Part shown: positions 7,801 to 39,593 of the stretch, piece after piece
Layout: every line of letters begins with the position of its first letter
Numbering within the stretch: the first letter of the stretch is position 1
Source of the DNA: Parabacteroides hominis
GTDB lineage: Bacteria; Bacteroidota; Bacteroidia; Bacteroidales; Tannerellaceae
Direction of reading: 5' to 3'
NCBI RefSeq assembly: GCF_014287585.1
Contig: NZ_JACOOJ010000014.1
Location: 1-64,000, forward strand
Length of the DNA stretch: 64,000 nt
Made by a program: the position numbers and the translations under genes
The notes under the pieces: model-generated
What the model was told of the DNA's origin: nothing
Database searches by the model: none
Seen by the model: the letters and a program-made list of their open reading frames with translations, nothing else

Positions 7801-10800
7801 AGCTGTTACTGTAGCCTGTGCCTTTACAACCTTAGCTGTTACGAAAGTGATCGGAGCTAAAGTATAATATGTAGCTGAATCCCCATTTAACAAAGCGTTC
7901 GCATTTGTTATCTCAACCGGAACTTTATCACCTACATTCTTATTGGCACGTGCTCCAGTCGGAGCAGTCGAAGTAGTAAAATAGGCAGCAGCAGCAGCTT
8001 CCCAAGGCAAACCGGAAACAGCGATATTAGCTGCATCCCATTTCAAAATTACGTCCGTATCTGCATTATATACAATTGAATCCCCTTTGGTATCTGCACC
8101 ATAGTTCGGAACGATACCTGCTGTCAGGGTCAAGGTACGTTTGGTGATTTTCAGTTTCTGAGTATTTTCCAGAATTTGATCTTTTTTATCATCAGATACA
8201 GTCAGAGTTATTGCTAATTCTTCCGTTGGTTTCAGTATAGTTAATACATTGTTTGCTATTGTTGCATAACTGTTTTGATCTGCTGCAACTGCAGCAGTAA
8301 TACCTTCCGCATTAAACGCCAACGTAATCGGAGCCGTACCATACACCACGCTATCCGGCAGGTTGGTTATCTTTGCCAATGTTTTCTGGAAAGATGCAAT
8401 AGTATATTCCTGCCCCTCGGTAAATTTCAATTCATACACAACCTTACCTGCATTCAACAATTCTTTTGCTACAGTTTCGTTGGAAGCGATAACACCGTCC
8501 TTACATGCGATAGAGAAAGTCTTACCATTCAAATCTATCTTATCAGAGGCGTTATTCATTTCAGCAACAACAGCAGCAGCAGATGTAGTATCAACTGCCA
8601 AAGCTCCACCGGCTGAGATACCAGCCATGATGTATTCCTTCGGAAGGTTCAGTGTACCGTTGTTAGTCAATTTACAACCGCTTGCAATAGTTAATCCTCC
8701 ATTTAGAGACCAAACATTATTTTCAGGGATAGTAAATTCTTTAATTTCAGTACCAGACTTCTGAGTAAAAGTATTAATATTTGCTTTCGCACCATTCAAT
8801 ACAACATTCTGCAAACCTTCACTGGCTTTCACTACAGGAGCATTACCAACAAATGTCATAGTTGTTTTTCCAGATACAGGAGTTGGGTAATTGCCATTTT
8901 GCCAATCTTTGTCAGCACCCAGATAACATTCATATCCTTCTGCAAATGTACAGTTATCAAATGCCATAGATACTTCTGCTGCTTTTCCACGATTTAGAGC
9001 AGCGAGACTGGGAGTATAGCCATCCTTACCTGTAGAGAAAGCACATTTCGTGAAAGTTGCCGTTACTTTATCAGAGCAACCATTTGAACCGGTTCCCTTC
9101 ATTCCGCCTTCGATATTCACTTCATTGAAGGTTGCAGTAATATCTTTCGTATAAGAATAGCTATATCCGCCACCGATATAGAAACAACCGGAAATCTTAC
9201 CTTTTGTCATGGAGAAATTAGCTTTACCAATGCGATTTACAATCTGAGCATATTCCGTGTCTAAAGATTCTCCAATGCCAACCGGAGCAAAACCACCACC
9301 AAAAGCATAAAGAAGATCAGTATTTTCACCTGTTACTTTAACATCGGTAGCCTCAGTCTTGGCATATTCCATACCTCCTGAAAGCATGTAACGGACATAA
9401 GCATTTTCGATATTCATGGTTACTTTACCAGTAACATCGGCAGTCTGTCTTTTGGCTTCCGCAAATTTAGCTTTCGGGCCATAGCCGCCACCAACTAAAT
9501 AACCGGTAATCCGTCCTCCTTTTATCGTAACATTTGCATTCTTAACATCGCCTAAGTAGCCGCCACCGAATATCATGGAAACTTCACCGCTTTCCAAAGT
9601 AACACTGGAAGATTCAACATCTGCATATTTTGAGCCACCAAAGATTACCGGATTATAGCTTTCCGGTATTTCCAAATAGTCATTTTCATCAACGCTAATC
9701 TTCAAATTGCCTGCTGTTGATGTTGCTATAGTAACAGGTTGTCCGTTTGCATAAATGAAGTATGTATTTTTGTATTTTGAATTACTTGGAAACTCTGCAA
9801 CATATTCCATCTGCAGTTTCGAGTTCGTCCAATAACGTTTCTCTTCTGAGCTTGCACCCTGAACACCCACATAAGAAGTCCAACCATTCGGGCCTTCAAC
9901 CAATTGTTTCGGATCTGTCGTAATATCTTCGGACCAGATCTTGGATGATTCGGCAAAAGAACAATCAGGAGAGAAAGTAAACTTCGGAGAATAAACCGGC
10001 GTTCCGTCTGTTCCGACATTTACGCCACCCCAAACATTACCTTCCGTATGCAATCCTTCAGCACTTACTTTAGAGTGAACCAACAGACCTGCTGTTGCAT
10101 TACCCTTTAATGTTACGTTCACTAAAGAAGTAGTCATCGGAGACTGCGCGTTAATACCGGCAGCTTTAGAATCTGCGACTGACAGGTTTTTCAATATTAC
10201 ATCTTCACCTGCTTGGCCATTTTCAATAGAGATCAGGTTCTTAACACTATTAGTCCCGCTCCAATCTGAGCCATTCGCTTTAATAGTAGTAGCTTCTTTT
10301 CCTTCAATGGTCAAAGGTCTGTTAATAACAAGCTGCTTGCCGAGTTCATAAGTCGTTGCTGCCAAATTAACCTTATTAACTGTAGCAAACCCTAAATTAA
10401 TAGTAGAGTCCAGTTGACCGGCAGTATTTACTGTTACAGCATCGTTGTCTTTTGCCCAAACATAAGCCAATGCACCATTATTAGATGTATGCATTGTTGC
10501 CAATTGTAAAGAACGATACCATTTATCATTTTCAGGCGTTACTACTGAAGCGATTATCTCAGCTACAGATGTTGTCGGATTACTGCTCCATTCGGAATAG
10601 GCATGTCTGTCGTAAAAAGCAATTTGCGGAACATTGTTCTCACTAATTGTTCCACTTTTCAAAGTAAACTTCGGCATATTTGTTTCCTGACGAGACAACT
10701 TAACAGCGAACTTTCCATTACCACTTGTAGTAAAATCAGTTGCAGTCAACTGTGAAGAGTTCAAATGCAAACCGCCTTCTTTATTATCAGATAATAAAAC

Positions 10801-11310
10801 CTTATCGAACTTCAGATTATTCAGATTGTAAAGATTGAAAGCCAAAATGTTTGTATTCCTTACAGTCAGGTCTTTGAAAGTAATAGGACTGCTTCCTGAA
10901 CCATCAAAGTAGAATACATAATTTTTGGTAGGATCAAAACTTCCCTCTACAGTATTCGAGGTATTTTCACCTGTAATACTATGTCCAGCTCCATCAATGG
11001 TTAAAGATGTAATTTTTGCCTCAGTAGCATTCAAGTAGAATACTCCTTGCCATTGTGCCTTAGTTGGATTTGGTCCCATAAATTTAACCTTAGAGATGTC
11101 CAAATCGTTCTCCAAAGTAATAGTAGTCGTCACTGATGTGCCACTATTCAAGATTTCCAACACATTTTGCAACCCCTCCGCGGTTGTCACTGTGTAATTT
11201 CCGTCATCGGTCTTTGTATAACCGTCTCCTGAGGTATCTGCCGCCTGCAACCACCCCACACTCGTTATCGTCATAAAGACCGATAACAACATAAGTAATC
11301 TTCTCTTCAT
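4891..11310 (-). CDS. giant secreted beta-helix/Ig-repeat protein with C-terminal sorting domain
   Basis: A 2139-aa exported protein. A signal peptide covers residues 1-23 (cleavage near LQAAD). The N-terminal quarter is rich in short beta strands with the spacing of a right-handed beta-helix. About residues 560-760 carry Gly-Gly repeats (IFGGGYLGDV, LVGGGYGPKA, YAFGGGFAPV, YIGGGYSYSY). The central part holds tandem Ig-like modules of the MBG/YDG type (repeated TYDG: KTYDGSVTAT, KTYDGLTQAT). A Big_2-type domain (WSSSDPTVASVT) follows at about 1985-2060. The last 75 residues (GNIYVNPIQPLQVTVVNMIG, ending in a short beta-rich GIYIVKL segment) resemble a type IX secretion sorting domain or the Bacteroidales DUF6383 terminus. 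It is likely surface-exposed or released; the ligand is unknown. It is transcribed alone, with its own terminator. Confidence 0.8.
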   Translation of the reverse strand: MKRRLLMLLSVFMTITSVGWLQAADTSGDGYTKTDDGNYTVTTAEGLQNVLEILNSGTSVTTTITLENDLDISKVKFMGPNPTKAQWQGVFYLNATEAKITSLTIDGAGHSITGENTSNTVEGSFDPTKNYVFYFDGSGSSPITFKDLTVRNTNILAFNLYNLNNLKFDKVLLSDNKEGGLHLNSSQLTATDFTTSGNGKFAVKLSRQETNMPKFTLKSGTISENNVPQIAFYDRHAYSEWSSNPTTSVAEIIASVVTPENDKWYRSLQLATMHTSNNGALAYVWAKDNDAVTVNTAGQLDSTINLGFATVNKVNLAATTYELGKQLVINRPLTIEGKEATTIKANGSDWSGTNSVKNLISIENGQAGEDVILKNLSVADSKAAGINAQSPMTTSLVNVTLKGNATAGLLVHSKVSAEGLHTEGNVWGGVNVGTDGTPVYSPKFTFSPDCSFAESSKIWSEDITTDPKQLVEGPNGWTSYVGVQGASSEEKRYWTNSKLQMEYVAEFPSNSKYKNTYFIYANGQPVTIATSTAGNLKISVDENDYLEIPESYNPVIFGGSKYADVESSSVTLESGEVSMIFGGGYLGDVKNANVTIKGGRITGYLVGGGYGPKAKFAEAKRQTADVTGKVTMNIENAYVRYMLSGGMEYAKTEATDVKVTGENTDLLYAFGGGFAPVGIGESLDTEYAQIVNRIGKANFSMTKGKISGCFYIGGGYSYSYTKDITATFNEVNIEGGMKGTGSNGCSDKVTATFTKCAFSTGKDGYTPSLAALNRGKAAEVSMAFDNCTFAEGYECYLGADKDWQNGNYPTPVSGKTTMTFVGNAPVVKASEGLQNVVLNGAKANINTFTQKSGTEIKEFTIPENNVWSLNGGLTIASGCKLTNNGTLNLPKEYIMAGISAGGALAVDTTSAAAVVAEMNNASDKIDLNGKTFSIACKDGVIASNETVAKELLNAGKVVYELKFTEGQEYTIASFQKTLAKITNLPDSVVYGTAPITLAFNAEGITAAVAADQNSYATIANNVLTILKPTEELAITLTVSDDKKDQILENTQKLKITKRTLTLTAGIVPNYGADTKGDSIVYNADTDVILKWDAANIAVSGLPWEAAAAAYFTTSTAPTGARANKNVGDKVPVEITNANALLNGDSATYYTLAPITFVTAKVVKAQATVTAKAANNDFGKELPTFEAEIKVIENSKDQLDGTLKFICSATPDSLVKQGGYDIMPYGLTSDNYAIKFVAGKLTVDAVDPKIEIVDAKVTGDADAKTITVRANLVHSGGATTATVTAASEMKAANGAIAKGDDGYYTYTISQATAATHTVTFTATAGDKSGTASINVTVEKGTPQNLTFDSKVLSSIVYGDSLQLAVTSDAAAATGEYTFSVGSGATISNTNVLKPTAAGEITVTVTRAADENYSSATVTKTIKVTPRPLKASVAAFTPKTYDGSVTATVPAITLSADYKVIGTDKVSIKTGATATYASKNVGTHAITLSTLELDGAQKDNYTLIQPTGLKGEITKKSATVKVNDVTRMYNQRYTKYTFTDTGLIEGESLSSVYTGKLDVAEKDGVLALTIDPKLCQNYNLTAQNGTLTITKGTPVVVAYNANDKAEALVVDSAGYTDLKIGKINDAGYFPVEDGSGTVITQSVNAIQQKDEVVNAMLTKATTEEWNNPNPIELVYGGSADQITDLSGYTYSSTNLNRLAVDNGTLTINGVGKVAIIATNTSGDVKVKLYEVTPKPVTYTANMDKTYDGLTQATGTVTLDGVEVSDNVALDMEGVTFNYTSNAAGTKTINPSQNPILVGADANNYSLTAALSGEISPKAVTVSTPISAYYTGSKSLTLDDFTAEGILSNDVVSLNVTLDNEEVGPRQFTLNSLGGNHVGNYTLFNKNAQLEGSVLKPTIIVEVPETASSVANAKSKLTYTIRETGKVVPGDAFSEAIQVVSLGNNAYQVSTKEDFDNKNFTLLYTKNLIGFKADPVTPPSGGDEDETVTISLDATTKDLPRTEEFILTATVSPAGKTVTWSSSDPTVASVTADGNKVTVKGVKVGKATITATIGDVTATCEVTVGFATGLEEALANTEVFGRKGNIYVNPIQPLQVTVVNMIGKIVYNARISGNTQIPVTKGIYIVKLTNAGNSIVTKVNVY

Positions 11311-15018: not shown

Positions 15019-15501
15019 ATGACGGCACAGCAGATTTCCTTCGTCAAAGCGTCCCTGCCGGCGGCCATAGCGGCGGGGACGGCTTTCAACATGAATCCGT
15101 CCGTGATCTTAACACAGGGTGCTTTCGAGAGCGGATGGGGCACGAGCGAGTTAGCGCTACGGGCGCATAACTTCTTCGGGCTGACGGCCTACGGGTGCAG
15201 CAACGCGTATTGGCACGGGCAGAAATATCCCGTCCGCACGTCGCGCGACGAACTGGATTTCCGGTGGTACGGGAGACGGGAGGATTCTTTCCTCGACTTC
15301 GCCCGCCTGATACGCAACAACTACCGCACGGCCTGGAGCAAGAGCGAAAACCCTTCCGCCTATGCGCATGAGATCGCCTACAGCCGCTACATCAGCGAAC
15401 TGAACGGGGACGACCGCGAAACCTACCGCCGCAGCCTGATACAGATCGAAAAGACGGTGCAGGCAATATTATCTATTACTTTTGGCTTGACCCAAAAGTA
15501 A
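15019..15501 (+). CDS. GH73-type glucosaminidase (peptidoglycan hydrolase), C-terminus altered by a repeat
   Basis: A 160-aa protein matching the Flg_J/GH73 N-acetylglucosaminidase fold. Catalytic Glu37 lies in LTQGAFESGWGTSELA, followed by NFFGL and a second-half motif YSRYISELNGDD. It would cleave glycan strands of peptidoglycan. No signal peptide is visible, so release would need lysis or a dedicated route. A GTG at 15004 could extend it by 5 codons, overlapping the HU gene. The last eight codons and the stop (encoding ITFGLTQK) are the terminal inverted repeat of a MITE-like element starting at 15476, so the native C-terminus has been replaced. Related Bacteroidales cassettes usually carry an amidase in this place, by recall. 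Confidence 0.85.
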   Translation: MTAQQISFVKASLPAAIAAGTAFNMNPSVILTQGAFESGWGTSELALRAHNFFGLTAYGCSNAYWHGQKYPVRTSRDELDFRWYGRREDSFLDFARLIRNNYRTAWSKSENPSAYAHEIAYSRYISELNGDDRETYRRSLIQIEKTVQAILSITFGLTQK

Positions 15502-15787
15502 TCAAAAGGTCAAGGCTTAACCTGCCGGGCTACCCCCGTTCCCGCGCCCCGCGCGGGATCGCAAGGAAGCAGGCAGTATCGGCCATCCCCCAAGCCTCCT
15601 CAGCCTCTCTTTTGCCGTCTGCTTCAGCAGACGGTTTAAAAGGTCTGGAGGCAAAGCCTCTTCTTTTGTGGGCTTCAGTCCCTTTTATGGATTATATTTA
15701 AAGGGGTTAAAAACCCACAGGGGAACCGGCAAGGCCGGAGCAATCATCTATCCGTCTGCTGAAGCAGACGGCAAAAGAGAAAGCCTC
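15476..15787. mobile_element. MITE-like repeat element, copy 1 (right end missing)
   Basis: The left terminal repeat (TTACTTTTGGCTTGACCCAA, continuing to 15522) matches both ends of the copy at 17391-17944. Inside are two palindromes CCGTCTGCTTCAGCAGACGG (15615-15634) and CCGTCTGCTGAAGCAGACGG (15752-15771), and longer nested arms. The right half found in copies 2 and 3 is absent. No protein is encoded. Confidence 0.8.
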
Positions 15788-16625: not shown

Positions 16626-17339
16626 TTATACAAACTTCTCCCTCTTCTGCAAGTTCAGGAGGCCGATCAGCATCCAGACGATGCTGGCGGCCAGGAGGAA
16701 GATGCGGCTTTTGATGATGATGCCTTCCCAGATGACCGGCAGGAAATTGCGGGGGATGGAGAAGGGGTTGAGGAGGATGTTCCAGAAAGAACGCTCGATA
16801 AAATCCATATTGCTGAAGATCAGCAGGGCGATGCCGATGATAATCATCAGAACGGCAGTCCCGTTGCCGCTGCGGGTGATGGTGGAGAACATGAAGGCGA
16901 GGTTTCCGAAAAAGAGGATCGGGAACATCAGTTGGGCCGACATCTCAAAGGCGTTGACGGGATAGAGCATGAGCGTAGCCAGCCAGGAGAAGACGATCAG
17001 GATCGCGAAGATCGCCACATAGATCATCAGCAGGCGGACGCCCCATACCTTATATTTATAGTCGGGGATGCCGAAAAGGATTTCCAATATCCGGCTGTCC
17101 TCATCGTTCTGTATGCCGAAAACAGCAGGATAGAACACCAACAGGACGCAGGGGAACATCAGGAGGTTATAGACCACCCCTTCGTTGACCTCCGACCGGC
17201 TCCAGGCAATCTGGAACATGAAATAGGCAAAAAACAGGAATGCCGCCAGGAGGAACCAGATGAATTTCCCGGCAAAGATAATCTTCAGGTTATATTTAAC
17301 CAGCCGGGGCAAGAGGGATATGAGTTGTTTCAGTGTCAT
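16626..17339 (-). CDS. ABC-2-type membrane permease
   Basis: A 237-aa integral membrane protein with six predicted helices (for example FIWFLLAAFLFFAYFMF, LLMIYVAIFAILIVFSWLA, VLMIIIGIALLIF, IFLLAASIVWMLIGLL). The cytosolic stretch (DEDSRILEILFGIPDYKYKV) resembles the coupling region of ABC-2 permeases of export systems. It has no ATPase of its own and lies directly behind the RND-ABC fusion gene, in the same orientation, so its likely partner is the fused ATPase. A 554-bp MITE-like element now separates the two genes and may disturb co-transcription. Confidence 0.75.
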   Translation of the reverse strand: MTLKQLISLLPRLVKYNLKIIFAGKFIWFLLAAFLFFAYFMFQIAWSRSEVNEGVVYNLLMFPCVLLVFYPAVFGIQNDEDSRILEILFGIPDYKYKVWGVRLLMIYVAIFAILIVFSWLATLMLYPVNAFEMSAQLMFPILFFGNLAFMFSTITRSGNGTAVLMIIIGIALLIFSNMDFIERSFWNILLNPFSIPRNFLPVIWEGIIIKSRIFLLAASIVWMLIGLLNLQKREKFV

Positions 17340-17390: not shown

Positions 17391-17944
17391 TTACTTTTGG
17401 CTTGACCCCAAAAGTAACCAAAAAGTCAAGGCTTAACCAGCCTCGTGCCGCAGGTTCTCTTTTGCCGTCTGCTGAAGCAGACGGATAGATGATTGCTCCG
17501 GCTTCGCCGGTTCCTCTGTGGGTTTTAACCCCTTTTGATGCAATCAATGAAAGGGACTGAAGTCCACAGAGGAAGAGGCTTTGCCTCCAGACCTTTCAAA
17601 CCGTCTGCTGAAGCAGACGGCAAAAGAGAGCCTGACGGGTTTTGGGGGATGGCCGATACTGCCTGCTTCCTTGCGATCCCGCGTCAAGCGCGGGAACAGC
17701 CTGTCCCCGTGCTTGACACGGGGCCGCAGAAGAACCGTCGGTATCGGCCATCCCAAGAGAAAGCGCAGCTTTCTAAGAAAGGCCTAAGCGGACGGGCGTC
17801 AAGCGGAGGGCGAAGACGAAGCGTCCGGAGCATGCGCTGTTTGAGCGAAGCGAGTTTCGCAGGCGACAGCGGAGCCTTTGACCGGAGTAGCCCGGACGGT
17901 TAAGCCTTGATCTTTTGGTTACTTTTGGATCAAGCCAAAAGTAA
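17391..17944. mobile_element. MITE-like repeat element, copy 2 (complete, 554 bp)
   Basis: Left terminal repeat 17391-17438 and right terminal repeat 17898-17944 are inverted and nearly identical over about 47 bp (left begins TTACTTTTGGCTTGACC; right ends AAGCCAAAAGTAA). The interior has palindromes CCGTCTGCTGAAGCAGACGG at 17465-17484 and 17601-17620, a long arm pair (CCTCTGTGG with CCACAGAGG, CCCTTT with GAAAGGG) and GC-rich hairpins (CCCGCGTCAAGCGCGGG). A 122-nt segment, 17769-17890, is ungapped and differs at 7 positions from 39444-39565 of copy 3. No transposase is encoded. It starts one base beyond the RND-ABC stop codon. No clear target-site duplication is visible. Confidence 0.85.
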
Positions 17945-20900
17945 CTACAACCCTTTTAACAAGCAAAGATAAGCATCTTCCAGATTCGGTTCCACCTGTT
18001 CCGCCCCGTCATAGGGGGAGGCGGTCGAGAGGTAACGGACCCGGATGCGGTCGTCTTTCTGGATATGGTTGACGATGCGGGATTTATCCAATGCCTGTTC
18101 AAATTCCGTCTTATCTATATCGAACTGCCAGACCTTTCCGGCTGCCATGCCGACCATATCGACCGGATCGCCGAAATACTTCAGGCTACCCTTGTCGATC
18201 ACCACCACCTGGCTGCACGAACTGGATATGTCTTCGATGATATGGGTGGAGAAGATCACGATGCGGTCCTTGCTAAGCTCCACCAGCAGGTTACGGAAAC
18301 GGATGCGCTCGCGCGGGTCGAGTCCGGCAGTCGGTTCGTCAACCACTAAGATACGCGGCAGGTGCAGCAGGATCAGGGCGATGCCGATACGCTGTTTCAT
18401 ACCGCCGGAGAAAGAACCGATCTTCTCGTCCCTGCGGTCGGACATGTGGACGGCCCGGAGGACATACTCCAACCGCTCACGGCGCAGGCCGGGATCGACA
18501 AGGCCCTTCAGGATCGCCTGGTAGTCGAGAAATTCCCAGGACGACATATTTTCGTATGTCCCGAACTCCTGCGGCAGGAAACCGATCAGGCTCTGCAACT
18601 CCTCCCGGTAGACACGCGTGTCCAGTCCGTTGATCCAAATACTGCCGTAGCTCTGTTCAAGGATGCCGCAGACGATACGCATCAGGGTGGACTTGCCCGC
18701 CCCGTTCGGTCCCAAGAGGCCGAACATACCCGTACGGATCTCGAACGATACGCCCCGGAGCGCCTTGAACGGCCGGCGGCGTTTCCCGATCAGCGGAATG
18801 CCTTTCACCATGCGGAACCACGAACGGCGCAGCCCGGCGAAACGGCCTTTTACACGCTCGATATTGATTTCCTTCTCATACAGATAGCCGGAAGTCACAT
18901 AGACAGCTATGCAGAACGCCCACAGCATCCCGACCGTCCCCACTAAGTTCGGATTGTCCAACCTGCGGAACAGGCCGAAGAGAATCAGCGGAGGAAGGCC
19001 CCAGAAGATGGCCCGGTTGACGTATTTCACCGCCCGGCTCCCCGCAAACCGCCCGTACAGGTATTCGCGCACCTTGCGCCACAGGTAAAGGGCAGCGGCA
19101 TAGACAGCGAAGGAAAGGATAAAGATCCACAGCCTGCTGTCGACAAAGAACCAGGTGAACCAGACGCCGAAGCCTAACAGGGCGAACTGCCAGCCCAGTT
19201 CCATAAAGAACCCTCTCTCCTGCGCCAGACGCGGGATCGCAGAAGCACCGGCGGTATCTGCATAATCAGAGGAGGGATCAGGGCTGATCTTTTGCGATCC
19301 TGCGTCAGGCGCAGGAACGCGGTGCAGACGGCCGCTCCGCAACTGGCGGCTGACACGTCCCGGCCAGTCGTATATCTTCACTAAGTTGCGGACGGATATA
19401 TGGATGTCCGCCTCCGGATCGATCACCTTCGAACGGGCGCGGCGGAGGCTTGCCTGCATAAAATAGGTCACGCCCGGAATACCGGCTGACAACAACACCC
19501 CGTAGACGGACTGCCACAGGAGGCTGCCGCCATACAGATAGATACAGCCCGCGCCTGCCGTAAAGAGCAAGCCGTGCAGCACCCACACTTTCGGGGACAG
19601 CCCCCTGTACCATTGCAACGTGTTTTCCAATCCCATGCAGACGGTCGGGATCAGGATCAGCGTCAGCAATGCCGAGAAGGAAAGGCCACCGATCACGGTA
19701 ATGGCAAACGGCGCACCGATCGCTCCGGCATACTCCGAGTTGCCCATCGCCATCGGAAACATGGCTACGATCGTCGTAATGGAGGTAATCAGGATCGGGC
19801 GGATGCGCGACAGCCCGGCCGTCATCAACGCCCTGTTGCGGCGGTAACCGCGCCGGCGGAGGATGTTGGAATAGTCGATCAGGATAATGCCGTTGTTCAC
19901 CACCACTCCCAACAGGATCAGGAACCCGACCATCACGTTCGCATTGTTCAGCAAACTGTTGCCCGTCAGCAGCAACGCCAACAGCGAACCGATCGCCGCC
20001 AGCGGGATGGAGAACAGCAGGACGAACGGCGTCGCAAAGGACTCGAACACCGAAGCCAGTATCATGAAGATCAGGATAAACGCCGCCAACAGCAGGAACT
20101 TGAAGTCGGCAAGCATGTCTTCCTCGTGGAACACCTCGACCGCCACGCCCGAAGGCAGGTTATAGCCCGACACCAACTGGTCGATATCCGACCGGTAGCC
20201 TTCGAGGAGGTCTTTCGACTCTTCGACGTCGCGCGAGAAGGAATAGAACAACTCGATCTGCTTGTCCTGGTTCACGCGGGTGATGCGGGCACGTCCGCGG
20301 CCATAGTTGACGGAGGCGATATCTTCGAGCCTGTGCAGGCCGCCGGAGGCGCTCGGTATGCGCACTTCGCGCAGGTCGTCCACCGTCTTGTCCCGGTTCT
20401 TGTCGGCCTCTTCCTCTTCTTCCGTCCGGTTCGTCCGGTTGCGGATGATGATATCGTAGGTGTCTTCCCCTACCTTGAAAGAGGTCCCGGACGAAATCTC
20501 CGGGTTTAGCGACGTGAGGCCGGAGGCTATGTTCTGGCGGGAGATATCGTAGGAGGTCAACAGGATCGGGTCGAAGCCGAGGCGGATCTCCGGTTGCCGG
20601 CGGCTGTAGGAGACACGGGTATTGCGGATGAACTCCTGCTCGTCGAGGTAATAGCGGAAGTCCTCCGCCACCCGCTGCATGAGGTCGAAGTCGGAGCCTT
20701 TGATCACGATCCGCTCCCGGTTCTCGCCGATACCCAAAAGGCGCATGAAGCCGCCCATGCCGCCCATCATATCCCCGGAACCGCTTCCACCCCTGCCCGC
20801 ACCGCCTCCGGCTTCGGAAAGGGATATTTCGGCGCCGTTGATGGTGCGGAGGCGGGTTTGCACGTCGGACTTGATATCGGCGATGCTGCGCTTCCCGATC

Positions 20901-22732
20901 TGGCGGTAATCTTCTTTGAGGACAAGTGTCAGCTCGGCATCCGTTTCCCGGATACGGCTGATCAGGTCTTGTTTCTCCGGAAACCCGTCAAGGCGTTCCT
21001 CGATGACATGGACGACCTGGTCGGCATTCTCCAGCGTGCTGCCGGTCGGCATCGTCACATAGATACTGAAACGGTCGCTCTCCACCTCTTTCCGGTCCTG
21101 GATATTCAGGGAGATAGAGAGGATCAGGCAAAGGAACAGCAGGATGACGGCCCCGAAGATCGTCACCCCCGGATTCCGCATACAGGTCTTCAACAGCACT
21201 AAATAGATCTGTACCGGCCGCTGCGTGACAGAGACCTTCTCGTAAAAGACCGTGCCCCTCTCCGGCTTCCGCAACACCGTATAAGTAGCCATCGGGATAA
21301 AAAGGAGGGCGACGGCGAGGGAGATCAGGAGGGTCGAGATGATGGAGACGCCGATATGGTGGCCCATCAGCTTGATCAGGAAATTATCGGAAAAGACGAA
21401 GGGCAGGAAGACCGTGACCGTCGTCAGGGTGGCGGCGAGGATGGAACGCCAGACCTCGCGCGTACCTTGCGTCACGGAACGTTCGGGCGTGCCTCCGGAG
21501 GCCGAGAGGCGGTAGATGTTCTCCAAGACCACCACACTATTGTCCAGCAGCATGCCGATCGCCAGCGCCACGCCGACCAGCGTAAGGCTGTTGATCGTAA
21601 TCCCTGCCCCGTAGAAGAAATTGAACGCCGTATAGACGGAGATCGGGATAGACAGGGCGATGAAGAACACCAACCGGAGGTTCTTCAGGAAAAGCCAGAG
21701 GATGACGACGGCAAGCAGGCCGCCCACGATCGCCAGGTGGATGATCTGGTCGATGTTATCCTCCATCGTCTCGGCCAGGTTGTTCTCTACCACGATCGAG
21801 AGGTCGAGCGGGGCAAGCTGCTCGTTCAGGCGGTCGATCACTTCGGCCGTACGGTGGGAGAGCCCGATCAGGTTGGCCTGCGAGTCGGCAAGCAGGGAGA
21901 CGGAGACGGCATCCTTGCCGTTGACCCGGCTGTAGCTTGTCTCCTCCTTCATATCGAAGAAAACGGTGGCAATGTCTTTCAGCAGGATGGGACCGGGAGC
22001 GACGACGATGTTTTCGAGGTCGGAGACTTCGGTATAAGGCGAGTTGACATGGACGAAGTATTTCCCGTCAGGCTCGTTAGTATTGCCTACGAAAGCCTTC
22101 TCCTGCGTATTCTGCGCCAGGAGGCTGCTGATGCCGGAAGGAGTCAGGCCGAGGGCTTTGCAGGCGTCGGGATCGAGTTGCACCTCGATGGCCTTCTCGC
22201 GCCCGCCGTAGATATTGACGGAGGCGATGCCGTCGATGTTTTCCAGATCGGGCCGTATCTCTTTCTCCACTAAGTTACGGACGCGGTCCGTACCGCCCGA
22301 TCCGCGTACCTGAAGCGACATGAAGCCGCCGGCAAGCATCGAGACATCGACCTTCTGCACCTGTACCGTAAAGCCTTCGGGAAGCGACGAGGCGGTCTCG
22401 TTGATCTTCTCCTGCAACTTCAGGGCGGTTATCTTGAAGTTGATATTCGGCTTGAAATCGATCTTGATGGAAGACTGGCGGCTGTCGATCCGGGACTCGA
22501 TCTGCTCTACCCCGCCTATGGTTCCGATGGCTCCTTCGAGGGGGATCACGACCTCCGACTCGACATACGACGGGTCCATATCCTGCGCCGACGCGACCTG
22601 CACGAACAGCATCGGAAGCTCCGCATTCGGCAACAGTTCGACCGGCAACTGCTTGTACGACACGTAGCCCAATCCTGTCAGGGCTATGAACAGCATACAG
22701 ATCGCAATCCTTCTATGTAGTAAAAAGTTCAT
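17945..22732 (-). CDS. RND efflux pump fused to a split ABC ATPase
   Basis: A 1595-aa inner-membrane protein. Residues 1-1035 form an RND (AcrB/HAE-1-type) pump: signal-anchor helix, two periplasmic loops, transmembrane blocks at about 332-490 and 876-1035, and proton-relay region GMLLDNSVV with Asp397. Two extra helices follow (about 1050-1092). ISVRNLVKIY (1112-1121) is the first strand of an ABC ATPase, but the rest (KALRGVSFEIRTG, 1323-1335) comes only about 200 residues later, after an insert with four helices (about 1177-1284). The ATPase then looks intact: Walker A GPNGAGKST (1341-1349), signature FSGGM (1441-1445), Walker B ILVVDEP (1461-1467), H-loop His1497. Its tail (VEPNLEDAY) matches the stand-alone ATPase of this operon (PPNLEHAY), suggesting duplication. 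Its start overlaps the upstream RND stop (ATGA). The substrate is unknown. Confidence 0.9.
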   Translation of the reverse strand: MNFLLHRRIAICMLFIALTGLGYVSYKQLPVELLPNAELPMLFVQVASAQDMDPSYVESEVVIPLEGAIGTIGGVEQIESRIDSRQSSIKIDFKPNINFKITALKLQEKINETASSLPEGFTVQVQKVDVSMLAGGFMSLQVRGSGGTDRVRNLVEKEIRPDLENIDGIASVNIYGGREKAIEVQLDPDACKALGLTPSGISSLLAQNTQEKAFVGNTNEPDGKYFVHVNSPYTEVSDLENIVVAPGPILLKDIATVFFDMKEETSYSRVNGKDAVSVSLLADSQANLIGLSHRTAEVIDRLNEQLAPLDLSIVVENNLAETMEDNIDQIIHLAIVGGLLAVVILWLFLKNLRLVFFIALSIPISVYTAFNFFYGAGITINSLTLVGVALAIGMLLDNSVVVLENIYRLSASGGTPERSVTQGTREVWRSILAATLTTVTVFLPFVFSDNFLIKLMGHHIGVSIISTLLISLAVALLFIPMATYTVLRKPERGTVFYEKVSVTQRPVQIYLVLLKTCMRNPGVTIFGAVILLFLCLILSISLNIQDRKEVESDRFSIYVTMPTGSTLENADQVVHVIEERLDGFPEKQDLISRIRETDAELTLVLKEDYRQIGKRSIADIKSDVQTRLRTINGAEISLSEAGGGAGRGGSGSGDMMGGMGGFMRLLGIGENRERIVIKGSDFDLMQRVAEDFRYYLDEQEFIRNTRVSYSRRQPEIRLGFDPILLTSYDISRQNIASGLTSLNPEISSGTSFKVGEDTYDIIIRNRTNRTEEEEEADKNRDKTVDDLREVRIPSASGGLHRLEDIASVNYGRGRARITRVNQDKQIELFYSFSRDVEESKDLLEGYRSDIDQLVSGYNLPSGVAVEVFHEEDMLADFKFLLLAAFILIFMILASVFESFATPFVLLFSIPLAAIGSLLALLLTGNSLLNNANVMVGFLILLGVVVNNGIILIDYSNILRRRGYRRNRALMTAGLSRIRPILITSITTIVAMFPMAMGNSEYAGAIGAPFAITVIGGLSFSALLTLILIPTVCMGLENTLQWYRGLSPKVWVLHGLLFTAGAGCIYLYGGSLLWQSVYGVLLSAGIPGVTYFMQASLRRARSKVIDPEADIHISVRNLVKIYDWPGRVSRQLRSGRLHRVPAPDAGSQKISPDPSSDYADTAGASAIPRLAQERGFFMELGWQFALLGFGVWFTWFFVDSRLWIFILSFAVYAAALYLWRKVREYLYGRFAGSRAVKYVNRAIFWGLPPLILFGLFRRLDNPNLVGTVGMLWAFCIAVYVTSGYLYEKEINIERVKGRFAGLRRSWFRMVKGIPLIGKRRRPFKALRGVSFEIRTGMFGLLGPNGAGKSTLMRIVCGILEQSYGSIWINGLDTRVYREELQSLIGFLPQEFGTYENMSSWEFLDYQAILKGLVDPGLRRERLEYVLRAVHMSDRRDEKIGSFSGGMKQRIGIALILLHLPRILVVDEPTAGLDPRERIRFRNLLVELSKDRIVIFSTHIIEDISSSCSQVVVIDKGSLKYFGDPVDMVGMAAGKVWQFDIDKTEFEQALDKSRIVNHIQKDDRIRVRYLSTASPYDGAEQVEPNLEDAYLCLLKGL
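19218..19316. repeat. 99-bp palindromic repeat inserted in frame in the RND-ABC gene
   Basis: Arms 19218-19243 (TCCTGCGCCAGACGCGGGAT, then CGCAGA) and 19291-19316 (TTTGCGATCCTGCGTCAGGC, then GCAGGA) are inverted repeats with about 3 mismatches in 26. They resemble the GCGATCCCGCGTCAAGCGCG hairpin in element copy 2 (from 17673). The length, 33 codons, keeps the frame open. It encodes the linker around VPAPDAGSQK and AIPRLAQER in front of the first inserted membrane helix. Confidence 0.75.
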
Positions 22733-25700
22733 CTTCCCCTTTTCATTTTTTCAAATACATAATATACGCACGGGATCACCACCAGGCTCATAACGGTCGA
22801 AGTCACCAACCCGCCGATCACCGCGATCGCCATAGGTGAACGGAGCGAAGCGCCTTCGCCGAAACCGAACGTCATCGGCAGGAGGGCGAGGATCGTCGTG
22901 AGCGTCGTCATCAGGATCGGGCGGATACGCTGCTGGCCGGATTCCACGATGGCATCCGTCAGTTCCATTCCTGACTGTTTCAACTGGTTGATACGGTCGA
23001 CCAGGATAATCGAGTTGTTCACCGCGATGCCGACCAGCATCACGATGCCGATCACTCCCATCATGTTGATCGTCGTCCCCGTCAGGAAGAACAGCAGGAT
23101 CGCTCCTACCACCGCCAACGGGATCGTCAGCAGGATCGTGAAGGGATGCAACAGCGACTCGAACTGCGAAGCAAGCACCATATAGACCAGGATCACCGAA
23201 AGAACCAAGGCGAACATCAGGCTGTTCATGGACTCCTGGCGCTTCTCTTCCTCGCCGGTGACGGTAATCGAATAGTTGGCGGGGAGGTCGATATCTTTCA
23301 CGGCAAGGCGTATCTCGCCGGCAACCTTGTCGAGCGAATAGCCTGCATCGAGGTTGGCCGTCACCTTGCTGATGCGGTTCTGCCCGCGTCGGAAGATTTC
23401 TTTCGGGGCCTGCGAATGGGTGATCGTGGCGATCTCCTGCAGGCGGAACTCTTTCTCGCCGCTTCGTATGACCAGCCCGCCGAGGCCGTGCAAGGTGATA
23501 TCGGGAACCTTGATCAGGATATCCCGCATCTCTCCCCGGTACTCCATCTTGCCGGATTCGAGGCCGCCGAGCTGCTGCTTCAACTGTTCGATAACGGTCG
23601 AGACGCTGACATTATGAATGCCGGCAACCGTGCGGTCGACGGAGATCGTTACCTCCGGGGCGCCGTCTTCAACGGACGACTGGACATTGTAAAGTCCCGG
23701 CAGACCGGTGATCCGTTCTTTTACTTCTTCTGTGATAGCCGCTATTTCGTCCAGTTCCTCTCCTTTTACCTCGACCACGATGGGGGCTCCTTCGCTTCCC
23801 AAAAGGGAGCTGAGGGAGTTCTCTTCCTGCTTCAGGGTGACCTCTAACCCTTCGGTATCTTCGGTAGCCTGTACGAACTGTGCCATCACCTCTTCGGGCG
23901 GGACGGGGCAGGAGGGCGAAAGGATCACTTTCATGACAGCCGTATTCTCCCCTTCGAATATATCATTCTCCGAACCGCTGCCCGATCCGACATGGCTGTA
24001 GATCGTACACAGGGAGTCTTGCGAGATGGTGTGCATCAAATCCTCCAGGTTACCGACAGCCGAAGCGGTACGCTCCAACGGAGTCCCTTCCGGCAACTTG
24101 ATAACGGCAGAGAACGCCTTGCTCCCGGCTCTCGGCATAAACTCCGTACCGATAAAGGGAACCAACAACCCCGCTATCACCAGCAACATCAAAGCGCAGC
24201 CGATCACCACCCAACGGCGGCGGAGCAGCGTACGCAACAAGGGGCTGTAACCGGTAATCCGGATGCCGTTTCCCCCCCGTGTACCACCACCAGCACCACG
24301 ATCCTGCCGTCCGGTAATCCGGTCATACAGCATCGGGATCACCAAGATCGCCACAAACAACGACGACACCAACGAGAACGTCACCGTCCAGGCCTGATCC
24401 TTAAACAGTTCTCCGGAAGCGCCATGCAGGTAGACAATCGGCAGGAAGACGACGATCGTCGTCAGCGTCGAGGCAATGACAGCACCGGCCACTTCGGAGG
24501 TTCCCGTTATGGCAGCTTCGCGTATCGTCATGCCCTTCTCCTGGTTACGGAAAATACTTTCGATCACCACGATCGCATTATCCACCAGCATGCCGGCTCC
24601 GAGGGCCAATCCGCCGAGCGTCATGATATTCAGCGTAAGATGATTGAAGAACATCAGGTTGAAAGTGGCAATAATGGAAATCGGGATAGCCAGGCTGACG
24701 ATCAACGTCGTCCCCAGACGGCGAAGGAAGACGAACAGGATAACCACAGCGAGGATAATCCCCAAGACGGCACTGCTCTTCACCTCTCCTATCGCATTCT
24801 TGATAAAGGTTCCCTGGTTCGTGATCACCTGGAAACGGTAACCGGGCAACGCCTGCTCGATAACCGCCAACTGGCTGATCACGCCATCGACGACCTTCAC
24901 CGTATTGAAACGCATCTCCTTATAAACGGACAGCCCGATACTGCGCTCGCCATTGATGCGGACAATATTTTCCGGGCGGGCATTCTCGAAGCTGACGGTA
25001 GCGACTTCGCGCAGGAAGATCGGAGCCTTGTCCGTAGACGATGCGGAAGCCGCACCGGAAGTCCCCGAAGCCGTAGCCTCGGCCGTAACCGGCTTGTAAC
25101 CGACAATCAGATTCTCAAAATCGCTCTCCGTCGCAAACAGGCTCGAACTCTTGACCAGGTATTGCAGGCCCAACTCGCTGACACGACCGCCGGATATGCT
25201 TTGGTTATTCGCCTCTATCTTAGAAGACAGATCATTTATCGTCAACTTGAAGGCATCTAATTTATAAGGGTCCGTGCGGATCATTAGCGTACTGACCTCG
25301 TCACCCGACAGCGTGACATCCGCCACTCCTTCCAGACGGATCAACTCGTTACGGATATAGCTCTCCGCCACCTTCCGAAGCTCCGCCATGTCGGTAATGC
25401 TGCGGTGCGAAAGTCCGATCAGGACGACGGGGGACTGGTTCGGATCGTGCTGCGTGATCTTGAGCTCGGTGATATCCTTATTTTGGGCAAAAGGGTTCAT
25501 GGCTTTCTGCAAGTCGAGAAAAGCCTCGTCCATATCTTTCTTCCAGGTGTACTCGACCGTGATGCGGGCGGAACCGGCACGGATCACGGATGATACCTGT
25601 GTCACGTCGCTCTGCCGGATCGCCATCGACTCCATGTTCTTGACAAACTGCTTCTCGATCTCCTCCGGCGGACGTTCGCCTGCCTTCAGCTCGATGAAGA

Positions 25701-25836
25701 GGCGGGGATTATTCAGGTCGGGCAACAGGTCGACCGCCAACTGGTCATAGGAAATCTTACCCAACAGCAGGATCGCCAGTACCAGCATCCAGATCGTAAC
25801 CGGGTTGCTTACCGCAAATTTGATAATACTTTTCAT
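22729..25836 (-). CDS. RND (AcrB/HAE-1-like) efflux pump
   Basis: A 1035-aa proton-driven inner-membrane exporter subunit, normal family length. The N-terminal helix is ISYDQLAVDLLPDLNNPRLF-like as in other RND pumps. The transmembrane signature is GLALGAGMLVDNAIVVIES, with one conserved Asp of the proton relay. The two periplasmic loops have pseudo-repeat symmetry, and the second block includes GVIGIVMLVGIAVNNSIILV. It overlaps the adaptor stop upstream and the fusion start downstream by 4 bases each (ATGA), so all three are translationally coupled. It is paired with a second RND protein, as in systems with two different pump subunits (MdtBC-like arrangement). Confidence 0.93.
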   Translation of the reverse strand: MKSIIKFAVSNPVTIWMLVLAILLLGKISYDQLAVDLLPDLNNPRLFIELKAGERPPEEIEKQFVKNMESMAIRQSDVTQVSSVIRAGSARITVEYTWKKDMDEAFLDLQKAMNPFAQNKDITELKITQHDPNQSPVVLIGLSHRSITDMAELRKVAESYIRNELIRLEGVADVTLSGDEVSTLMIRTDPYKLDAFKLTINDLSSKIEANNQSISGGRVSELGLQYLVKSSSLFATESDFENLIVGYKPVTAEATASGTSGAASASSTDKAPIFLREVATVSFENARPENIVRINGERSIGLSVYKEMRFNTVKVVDGVISQLAVIEQALPGYRFQVITNQGTFIKNAIGEVKSSAVLGIILAVVILFVFLRRLGTTLIVSLAIPISIIATFNLMFFNHLTLNIMTLGGLALGAGMLVDNAIVVIESIFRNQEKGMTIREAAITGTSEVAGAVIASTLTTIVVFLPIVYLHGASGELFKDQAWTVTFSLVSSLFVAILVIPMLYDRITGRQDRGAGGGTRGGNGIRITGYSPLLRTLLRRRWVVIGCALMLLVIAGLLVPFIGTEFMPRAGSKAFSAVIKLPEGTPLERTASAVGNLEDLMHTISQDSLCTIYSHVGSGSGSENDIFEGENTAVMKVILSPSCPVPPEEVMAQFVQATEDTEGLEVTLKQEENSLSSLLGSEGAPIVVEVKGEELDEIAAITEEVKERITGLPGLYNVQSSVEDGAPEVTISVDRTVAGIHNVSVSTVIEQLKQQLGGLESGKMEYRGEMRDILIKVPDITLHGLGGLVIRSGEKEFRLQEIATITHSQAPKEIFRRGQNRISKVTANLDAGYSLDKVAGEIRLAVKDIDLPANYSITVTGEEEKRQESMNSLMFALVLSVILVYMVLASQFESLLHPFTILLTIPLAVVGAILLFFLTGTTINMMGVIGIVMLVGIAVNNSIILVDRINQLKQSGMELTDAIVESGQQRIRPILMTTLTTILALLPMTFGFGEGASLRSPMAIAVIGGLVTSTVMSLVVIPCVYYVFEKMKRGR

Positions 25837-31694: not shown

Positions 31695-32588
31695 TTAATC
31701 GTTTCTCCAACGGTTCAACTTGTTTTCCATATAGTAGACATAGGCATGTTCCAGGTTCGGCGGATAGGATTCCGCGTCATATCCCTGCACCTCATCTGCC
31801 ACCACCTGCACTTCCCAACCCGTACCGGACGGGATCGTCGAGATAACCGGGTACAGTTTATCCACCTCATGCAGTTCGTCGCCGGTCACCCGTATGCGCC
31901 ATACCTTCCCCTCCGCCTGCCTCAACATATCCTGCGGGGAACCGTAGAACGAGACTTCCCCCTTATTCATAAGCGCCATACAGTTGCACGTACTCGATAT
32001 ATCGCCCACGATATGGGTCGAAAGGATGATTGTCACGTCGTTTTCACTGACTTCCGACAGGAGGTTGCGGAAACGGATTCGCTCTTCGGGATCGAGCCCT
32101 GTCGTAGGTTCGTCCACGATAATCACTTTCGGATGATGGATCAACGCCTGCGCAATCCCCAAACGACGCTTCATCCCTCCCGACAGCTTGTTGGCATACC
32201 GGTCGCGCACATCGAAAAGCCCTACGTTTTCCAACATCTCATCCACCGCATTCTTTCGCAAAGACTTACGGTTCATACCGGAAAGACGCGCAGCGTAGTC
32301 TAAAAACTCATACGTTTTATATTTGGCAAAAAACCGGAAATCCTGTGGCAGATACCCCAATATGCCCCGTATCTCCTTGCGTTGCCGCATCAGGTCGTAT
32401 CCGCAGATATCCACCTCGCCCGAAGTCGGTTCCATAAGAGCCACTAAAATACGCATCAAAGTAGATTTACCCGCCCCGTTCGGTCCTAAAAGTCCGAACA
32501 TACCAGTCGGTATTTCCAGATTGACATCTTTCAGCGCATGGTTTCCATTCGGATACACTTTATTGAGATTTCTTATCGATATGCTCAT
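31695..32588 (-). CDS. ABC transporter ATPase
   Basis: A 297-aa cytosolic ATP-hydrolysing subunit, first gene of the export operon. It shows ISIRNLNKVY, Walker A GPNGAGKST, signature LSGGMKRR, Walker B VIIVDEP and H-loop STHI. The segment between first strand and second strand is only five residues (PNGNH), whereas the homologous ATPase in the RND fusion has about 200 residues there. The tail PPNLEHAYVYYM also matches the fused copy. I use ATG at 32588, not the TTG one codon earlier. It probably pairs with the downstream ABC-2 permease. Confidence 0.93.
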   Translation of the reverse strand: MSISIRNLNKVYPNGNHALKDVNLEIPTGMFGLLGPNGAGKSTLMRILVALMEPTSGEVDICGYDLMRQRKEIRGILGYLPQDFRFFAKYKTYEFLDYAARLSGMNRKSLRKNAVDEMLENVGLFDVRDRYANKLSGGMKRRLGIAQALIHHPKVIIVDEPTTGLDPEERIRFRNLLSEVSENDVTIILSTHIVGDISSTCNCMALMNKGEVSFYGSPQDMLRQAEGKVWRIRVTGDELHEVDKLYPVISTIPSGTGWEVQVVADEVQGYDAESYPPNLEHAYVYYMENKLNRWRND

Positions 32589-32624
32589 CAACAGGTAAAT
32601 TCTGATTCATATAAATAGCGAGGC

Positions 32625-39183: not shown

Positions 39184-39593
39184 CAGGGCGACCGCACCAA
39201 AAGTTCAAGGCTTGCCTTATGCCGCAGATTCTCTTTTGAGTCTGCTTCAGCAGACGGATAGATGATTGTTCAATAGATGAAAGGGACTGAAGTCCACAGA
39301 GGAAGAGGCTTTGCCTCTAAATCTCTTAAACCGTCTGCTGAAGCAGACGGCAAAAGAGAAGCTGAGGGGGCTTTGGGGATTGCTGATACTGATAGCTATA
39401 TTTGTATAAGAGGCGGTATCGGCAATCCCAAGAGAAAGCTGCACTTTCTAAGAAAGGCCTAAGCGGACGGGCGTCAAGCGGAGGGTGAAGGCGAAGCGGC
39501 AGGAGCCTGAGCTGTTTGAGCGAAGCGAGTTTCGCAGGCGACAGCGGAGCCTTTGCCCGGAGTAGACCGGAAGGAAATATTTTGGTTGCCCTG
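39184..39593. mobile_element. MITE-like repeat element, copy 3 (410 bp)
   Basis: Ends are short inverted repeats CAGGGCGACC (from 39184) and GGTTGCCCTG (to 39593), different from the long termini of copy 2. The interior shares CAGCAGACGG palindromes (39240-39257; 39331-39350), the block around GAAAGGGACTGAAGTCCACA, and the 122-nt core 39444-39565 with copy 2 (7 differences, no gaps). No protein is encoded. Confidence 0.8.

Follow-up and report, generated by a model that had tools for sequence, protein, structure and literature searches.

RND and ABC exporters are usually regarded as distinct classes, each with its own energy source, and the locus described here raises the question of what a single chain made of both could be doing. 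The window, i.e. the whole stretch of 64,000 nucleotides from Parabacteroides hominis that was analysed, contains on its minus strand (17945-22732) a single uninterrupted frame of 1,595 codons in the ORF list, encoding a protein termed RND2-ABC. Pfam placed ACR_tran at residues 2-1031 (515.5 bits) and ABC_tran at residues 1325-1469, in agreement with the initial annotation, which had read the 1595-aa frame as a full RND pump joined to an ABC ATPase. The RND2 part is a full-length AcrB/AcrD/AcrF-type domain with 12 hydropathy peaks at RND positions; a weak extra peak at residues 242-260 was not counted as a helix. The gene is divided as follows:

17945..22732, minus strand: RND2-ABC fusion gene, 1595 aa (open reading frame, Pfam and homologues)
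19634..22732, minus strand: RND permease part, residues 1-1033, TM1-12, HAE-1 type (Pfam, hydropathy and alignment)
19406..19633, minus strand: linker with two extra helices, TM13-14, residues 1034-1109 (hydropathy and alignment)
19370..19405, minus strand: strand beta-1 of the ABC domain with the A-loop tyrosine, residues 1110-1121, IHISVRNLVKIY (alignment)
18767..19369, minus strand: membrane insert within the ABC domain, residues 1122-1322 (alignment and hydropathy)
19218..19318, no strand assigned: repeat-derived stretch in the first cytosolic loop of the insert, lineage-specific and in frame
17948..18766, minus strand: remainder of the ABC ATPase domain, residues 1323-1595, with all catalytic motifs

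The first strand of the ABC domain, ISVRNLVKIY, occupies residues 1112-1121 and ends in the A-loop tyrosine (Y1121), and the second, KALRGVSFEI, starts at residue 1323, both as initially annotated, leaving a gap of about 200 residues between the two. Hydropathy agreed with the four helices predicted in this insert (1179-1197, 1199-1217, 1237-1255 and 1263-1281) and gave two further ones upstream of the first strand (1049-1067 and 1071-1089), which had been overlooked, as had the permease gene at 16626-17339, the ABC-2 permease within the protein M1perm and the depth of conservation described below. The same six extra-helix peaks were present in the average over 74 homologues. The predicted order within the insert is a basic cytosolic segment, two transmembrane hairpins and a basic segment. 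In the 74 homologues, the predicted cytosolic loops of the insert carry mean net charges of +4.7, +3.8 and +5.7 and the periplasmic ones about 0, values that fit a location of the ATPase in the cytosol. The loops flanking TM13-14, expected to be cytosolic, are near neutral in the same homologues (+0.1 and +0.3), so that the orientation of this hairpin draws no support from charge. On the predicted topology the chain can cross the membrane as needed with its ATPase entirely cytosolic, and the fused ATPase would be anchored in the membrane on either side of its first strand, as had been proposed for its nucleotide-binding core. Residues of about 1136-1172 are peculiar to the lineage of the window, since the repeat-derived sequence lengthens that loop.

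The fused ATPase has a full set of motifs: Walker A, the signature, Walker B and the H-loop, as already annotated, and also the Q-loop and D-loop. In ABC1, the stand-alone ABC ATPase encoded nearby, and in 10 control ATPases, the only ones that passed the motif filter, the A-loop aromatic residue is separated from Walker A by 23-27 residues. The corresponding distance in the fused ATPase of the window is 220 residues, and measured by the 23-27 residue spacing its ABC domain is thus not continuous.

Could such a chain be an artefact, i.e. a frameshift, a read-through or an assembly join of separate RND and ABC genes? A relative of RND2-ABC was found in 15 loci of other genomes, which argues against an assembly join, and all 13 of those long enough for alignment share both the position of the fusion and that of the insert; they are labelled Parabacteroides, Bacteroides, other Bacteroidales, Flammeovirgaceae and Cytophagales, among others. 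For a wider comparison, at least 350 proteins were collected by searches with the module or with the whole fusion. From 350, the 135 shorter than 1,500 aa were dropped, as were 150 near-duplicates among the remaining 215, and nine sequences from the window and the loci were added, giving 74 aligned representatives (five of the 13 loci were left out of this alignment as near-copies or truncated). Fusion, insert and ATPase motifs are present in all 74 dereplicated representatives; these figures express the uniformity of the fused family rather than the frequency of the fusion, since the sequences were retrieved by module or fusion searches. The distance from the end of the RND part to the first ABC strand is 78 residues in 74/74, while the length of the insert ranges from 162 to 216 residues. 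Y1121 and the Walker A, signature, Walker B, D-loop and H-loop motifs are kept throughout (74/74), including the Walker B glutamate and the H-loop histidine, and the exceptions are confined to single sequences, namely Q1388 (73 of 74, one Arg), S1348 (73, one Thr) and P1473 (73, one Thr). Because the motifs and the A-loop tyrosine are held in every representative, the fused domain is very probably an active ATPase, as the initial annotation had supposed.

The module search found the fusion module in 6 of 395 Bacteroidota genomes, counting the centre genome, whichever of two centres the search used. Among 393 sampled Bacteroidales genomes 55 matched, of which three did so through an ABC1-like ATPase alone and were excluded, leaving 52. 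Open frames of at least 1,515 aa carry 44 of the 52 Bacteroidales modules, the other eight lying at contig edges as judged from coordinates. A search with the RND part alone detected RND2 in 40 of 295 Bacteroidales, fused in one frame of at least 1,500 aa in 32 cases and at or near contig ends in the other eight: G410 and G677 have a fused RND2 cut on its N-terminal side, and the six other RND2 genes are broken at or near contig ends, with the match in G486 stopping 224 bases before the end. G413 had appeared as a candidate unfused RND2 and was rejected, as the contig end falls inside the gene; no clear case of an unfused RND2 was seen among the 40 RND2-bearing genomes of the 295. With the same single frame recurring in isolates and metagenome-assembled genomes across the phylum, the short frames lying at or near contig ends and nothing in its favour, an artefactual origin of the fusion is practically negligible, and neither of the outcomes that would have spoken against the initial annotation (an assembly join or frameshift; no fusion in relatives) was encountered in the 13 alignable loci or the 74 representatives. 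As judged from sequence comparison, the fusion family is old and deeply conserved across Bacteroidota, a sign that membrane helices directly after the A-loop may be accommodated by an ABC ATPase domain and retained for a long time.

The search for the module without the RND part covered the best 120 of 7,745 matches. Several module-matching proteins encoded on long contigs (P0149, P0194, P0217, P0261 and P0285; 803-1,084 aa) may represent frameshifts or true splits. Two variants, L100 and L101, keep the first strand, the tyrosine and the insert with about one hairpin fewer by alignment; the tyrosine precedes Walker A by 131 residues and all five motifs checked are present in both. The insert of L100 shows two helices and that of L101 one clear peak, the other helix falling below the threshold.

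The fusion gene is the sixth of seven genes that follow one another on the minus strand in the order ABC1, M1perm, TolC, adaptor, RND1, RND2-ABC and perm237. Its six companions are:

16626..17339, minus strand: perm237, a six-helix ABC-2 type permease of 237 aa, the apparent dedicated partner of the fusion
22729..25836, minus strand: RND1, a second RND permease, 1035 aa
25833..26891, minus strand: membrane fusion (periplasmic adaptor) protein, MFP, 352 aa
26893..28392, minus strand: TolC-type outer membrane factor, 499 aa
28406..31684, minus strand: M1perm, 1092 aa, an ABC-2 permease with an M1-peptidase-like domain without HExxH and a Golvesin_C domain
31695..32591, minus strand: ABC1, a stand-alone ABC ATPase of 298 aa, forming one clade with the fused ATPase

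All seven genes occur in the same order in the window and in 13 distinct relative loci (L001, L004-L007, L009, L010, L012, L083, L085, L087, L089 and L090; ABC1 is partly cut in some). In the remaining fusion loci examined the row is interrupted by a contig or fetch end, with the exception of L003, where the genes for TolC, adaptor, RND1, RND2-ABC and perm237 are present and neither ABC1 nor M1perm was found in the 1.8 kb beside TolC; in this draft genome the two genes could lie elsewhere or be absent. In L015, M1perm is split over two frames. The gene next to the fusion in the cassette is perm237 in 20 of the 20 examined loci that reach past it, and perm237 and the fusion module were detected, at the thresholds used, in the same 6 of 395 Bacteroidota genomes and in no others. 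No flanking gene recurs across the 15 sequences compared, sharing being limited to pairs or close kin, so that the cassette looks self-contained; a rubrerythrin-like flanking gene is common to the window, L004 and L086.

The gene row brings together an inner-membrane transporter, an adaptor and a TolC-type channel, the combination that defines a tripartite exporter. In its two RND genes, adaptor and TolC-type channel it resembles MdtABC-TolC of Escherichia coli, and MdtB is the best PDB match for both RND parts; it differs in that RND2 bears an ABC ATPase and six extra helices and in that two proton-relay residues are missing. MdtBC is not known to have an ABC domain or associated ABC genes. 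In MacAB-TolC and type 1 secretion systems an ABC transporter works with an adaptor and TolC (PMC8277102). The present cassette differs from them in uniting both transporter classes in one gene row and in one chain. Neither MacAB-TolC nor type 1 secretion systems are known to contain an RND protein.

An ABC-2 exporter comprises two permease domains of about six helices and two ATPase domains; genes for two permeases and two ATPase domains are conserved in the cassette and may form a putative exporter of this kind. The six helices of perm237 were recognized by hydropathy, and two of 17 family members matched ABC2_membrane_3 in Pfam. The N-terminal part of M1perm matched ABC2_membrane_2 in 10 of 13 members and is followed by an M1-peptidase-like region, matched in six of nine members and giving weak PDB profile matches to aminopeptidases at about positions 729-810 (best E 0.0005). 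The HExxH motif is absent from all nine M1perm proteins, and a Golvesin_C domain follows the M1-like region in each of them; the M1-peptidase-like domain is, by these sequence criteria, dead. Profile comparison detected no relation between perm237 and the permease part of M1perm, and since, in addition, only 2/17 Pfam matches were obtained, the view of the two proteins as halves of one channel draws chiefly on gene content. Profile comparison with perm237 and M1perm gave no support for the view of the six extra helices of the fusion, TM13-18, as a hidden ABC permease, and the other matches of these helices were weak and scattered (best E 0.062 in Pfam with 14 members and 0.23 in the PDB profile search). 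Nor did the comparison establish the three hairpins as copies of one another, the hhalign probability being 18.6 (P 0.0013) for hairpins 1 and 2 and 0.2 and 2.7 for the other pairs.

A two-gene relative occurs at L122 and L123, in two genomes where the search did not detect the fusion; its genes encode a single ABC ATPase and a permease of 12 helices that carries an M1 domain. It is similar to the cassette in that its ATPases fall in a clade with ABC1 and the fused domain and in that an ABC-2 permease is followed by an M1 domain. In contrast to the cassette, which has two ATPases, half-permeases on separate genes, no HExxH and an added Golvesin_C domain, this stand-alone system has a single ATPase, a single-chain 12-helix permease and an intact HEMAH motif (present in L122), and no RND or TolC gene was recognized in the roughly 20 kb fetched. 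The permease part of M1perm is weakly related to the second permease half of the stand-alone protein (24.5% identity over 204 residues, E 1.8e-5, one sequence), and perm237 gave no significant match to that protein. The cassette suggests an arrangement in which the permease halves are placed on separate genes and served by two ATPases instead of one, and the stand-alone relative, with one ATPase and one 12-helix permease carrying M1, fits this idea.

The fused ATPase had initially been considered a close match to the ATPase of its own operon, born by duplication and fusion. The two are, however, 43% identical over 272 residues, which makes the fused domain an old paralogue of ABC1 and not a recent copy of it. 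In a 55-sequence tree, ABC1 and the fused ATPase formed two sister clades (each 100/99), together exclusive with respect to 22 other ABC ATPases, in keeping with an origin by duplication. A copying of the fused domain (ABC2) from ABC1 seemed supported by this tree, but when the stand-alone ATPases were added the order of the three groups was left without preference: neither ABC1 with ABC2 (p-AU 0.364) nor ABC1 with the stand-alone ATPases (p-AU 0.542) was rejected. The two cassette ATPases lie in one clade with the stand-alone ones, and a duplication within this operon is a candidate origin of the fused domain. Both trees, which gave long-branch warnings, omit three rows whose genomes were already represented (two from L086, one from L013); the second also omits six distant or long-branched rows. 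The motif expressions matched ABC1 in 11 of 20 sequences for the first version of the A-loop and in 16 of 20 for strict Walker A, some sequences being cut at locus ends. Among solved structures, ABC1 and the fused domain both have their closest sequence matches in the ATPase domains of ABCA-type (type V) transporters, which the cassette also recalls in its ABC-2 permease families; NosF of NosDFY appears in both lists, further down. The ATPase domain of ABCA-type transporters is, as far as known, continuous, whereas the fused domain is interrupted after beta-1 by membrane helices and is joined to an RND protein.

Alignment to solved RNDs (MdtB) was used to map the proton relay, which in its canonical form comprises two adjacent aspartates in TM4, a lysine in TM10 and an arginine and a threonine in TM11, residues that take part in proton transfer in AcrB. 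RND2 of the window retains the first TM4 aspartate (D397), R978 and T983, and has N398 in place of the second aspartate and N946 in place of the lysine. RND2 therefore lacks the canonical relay, and the pattern is constant in the family: the first TM4 aspartate, the TM11 arginine and the threonine are found in 74/74, the second aspartate in 0/74 (Thr in 56, Asn in 18), and asparagine occupies the lysine site in 74/74. RND1 shows the same pattern in 10/10. Twenty other RNDs from the same five genomes served as controls (one of the 20 control regions had no 800-aa frame, and the second RND of L005 was taken as the 20th); both aspartates are present in 16 and the lysine/arginine in 15, asparagine stands at the lysine site in three, and three are without both features. 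The absence of relay residues from both RND subunits of the cassette makes a changed energy coupling at most plausible, and it qualifies the premise of the initial annotation that RND pumps run on proton flux. Proton coupling through a modified relay is nevertheless possible, since the first TM4 aspartate, the TM11 arginine and the threonine are kept in both.

These observations bear on what the fused ATPase drives, for which the initial annotation had suggested dual energy input or a mechanically coupled hybrid exporter. One explanation makes it the main motor of the RND pump, with the ABC-2 permeases as coupling parts and not a separate channel, as in mechanotransmission ABC systems, where the permeases act as coupling parts rather than as an export channel. 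The loss of the second TM4 aspartate and the TM10 lysine in all RND2 and RND1 proteins examined, a pattern that most of the 20 controls do not share, would agree with this, as would the all but invariant ATPase motifs. The explanation is nonetheless decidedly unlikely, given that other RND branches rely on different proton relays, that three of the 20 controls also have asparagine at the lysine site and three lack both features, and that one TM4 aspartate is retained. A related reading sees a new class of transporter, an ATP-powered RND machine: an RND trimer that has lost two canonical relay residues would be cycled by an ABC heterodimer of which one half, threaded through the membrane, belongs to the RND chain, and ATP hydrolysis would thereby move the periplasmic duct directly. 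It is also considered unlikely, though less so. A conserved chain of RND and ABC domains in a fixed cassette makes the direct driving of an RND protein by ATP testable.

With a probability judged slightly better than even, the seven genes may encode one composite machine, in which ABC1 and the fused ATPase, as a heterodimer, drive an ABC-2 exporter attached to a tripartite RND pump. On this view the fused ATPase would pair with ABC1, and the heterodimer would power an exporter formed from two half-permeases, M1perm and perm237. This exporter would dock on, and feed, the pump made of RND1, RND2, adaptor and TolC; its docking is presumed, and the covalent link that would hold it there can be read from the gene, one ATPase domain being part of RND2. 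The six extra helices are predicted to hold the ATPase at the membrane on either side of its first strand. The likely job of the machine would be to pass a substrate, taken from the cytosol or the inner leaflet by the ABC half, on to the RND/TolC duct and from there to the outside, with ATP as at least one energy source of export. Since both RND proteins lack two canonical relay residues, ATP may power more than the ABC half and, speculatively, may contribute via the tether to driving the RND cycle. If each trimer contains one RND2, one ABC exporter would be docked per pump.

The fusion could instead be a tether only. The RND pump would then run on protons and the ABC-2 exporter on ATP, each independently of the other, with the covalent link setting their ratio and keeping them close so that one feeds the other. 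The conserved first TM4 aspartate, TM11 arginine and threonine of RND2 (74/74) are consistent with this. A plain anchor is further favoured by the loop after the first strand, which takes lineage-specific insertions, and by the two variants with a shorter insert, since the region thus tolerates both added sequence and a lost hairpin. Force transmission is favoured, on the other hand, by the invariant length of the linker (74/74) and by the position of the insert directly after the A-loop tyrosine, beside the nucleotide site; together with the two relay residues missing from both RND subunits, this makes the tether-only explanation somewhat unlikely. A regulatory role, in which the fused ATPase would respond to ATP or to the state of ABC1 and gate the RND pump but would not itself power transport, is very improbable: nothing beyond the fusion itself points to it, the catalytic set is complete in 74/74, including the Walker B glutamate and the H-loop histidine, and a permease gene, perm237, accompanies the fusion. 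In some gut and environmental Bacteroidota, the presence of both parts in one chain of this conserved cassette suggests a physical coupling of two pump classes otherwise regarded as distinct.

The fusion architecture matched nothing described in the literature searched, which was mostly open access and did not include bioRxiv preprints, and in which no description of an RND-ABC fusion was found; as far as that search goes, the fusion appears to be visible in some database annotation yet undescribed. Among the 25 listed of 200 matching NCBIfam models, none reaches its cut-off for the fusion. Database entries, if they give the protein a name, use 'efflux RND transporter permease subunit', an ABC ATPase or a pair of subunit names, so that current annotation obscures the fusion.

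A repeat element roughly 500 bases long, with 31-nt inverted ends (94%), is present in the window as whole or partial copies, and a palindromic repeat piece also lies in frame within the membrane insert that splits the ABC ATPase of the RND-ABC fusion:

window 15476-15781, 17400-17945 and 39196-39574, repeat element, whole or partial copies
window 19218-19318, palindromic repeat piece, in frame, within the first cytosolic loop of the insert

The stretch of the loop holding this piece comprises 61 residues in the window and 38 in most close relatives, with lengths of 45, 71 and 77 residues found in other relatives; one retrieved protein, P0061, was parsed improperly in this comparison. One copy of the element sits between the fusion gene and perm237, the 237-aa ABC-2 type permease gene downstream, and in the relatives compared these two genes overlap or stand at most about 100 bases apart.

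Natural variants of the fusion occur at loci L100 and L101, where the insert is shorter by approximately one helix hairpin and perm237 is still found downstream. At L003:1-1830, neither ABC1 nor M1perm accompanies the TolC gene of the cassette, their place being taken by an unrelated long frame. Two diverged copies of the cassette (L009 and L082) are present in one genome, G005.

Two genomes without a detected fusion carry a stand-alone ABC ATPase together with a 1212-aa permease bearing an M1 peptidase domain:

L122:11547-16061, ABC ATPase and M1-permease pair
L123:11672-16186, ABC ATPase and M1-permease pair

As checked in L122 only, the permease has 12 predicted helices and the HExxH motif HEMAH. 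This pair is probably related to the cassette's ABC half.

In two distant loci, a small, related, secreted-looking protein is encoded upstream of ABC1. The window encodes a 2139-aa protein that also looks secreted:

L013:2307-2744, small secreted-looking protein
L082 (reversed) 1958-2440, small secreted-looking protein
window 4891-11310 (-), 2139-aa protein, secreted by appearance

Judged by eye, the 2139-aa protein possibly carries a C-terminal sorting signal.
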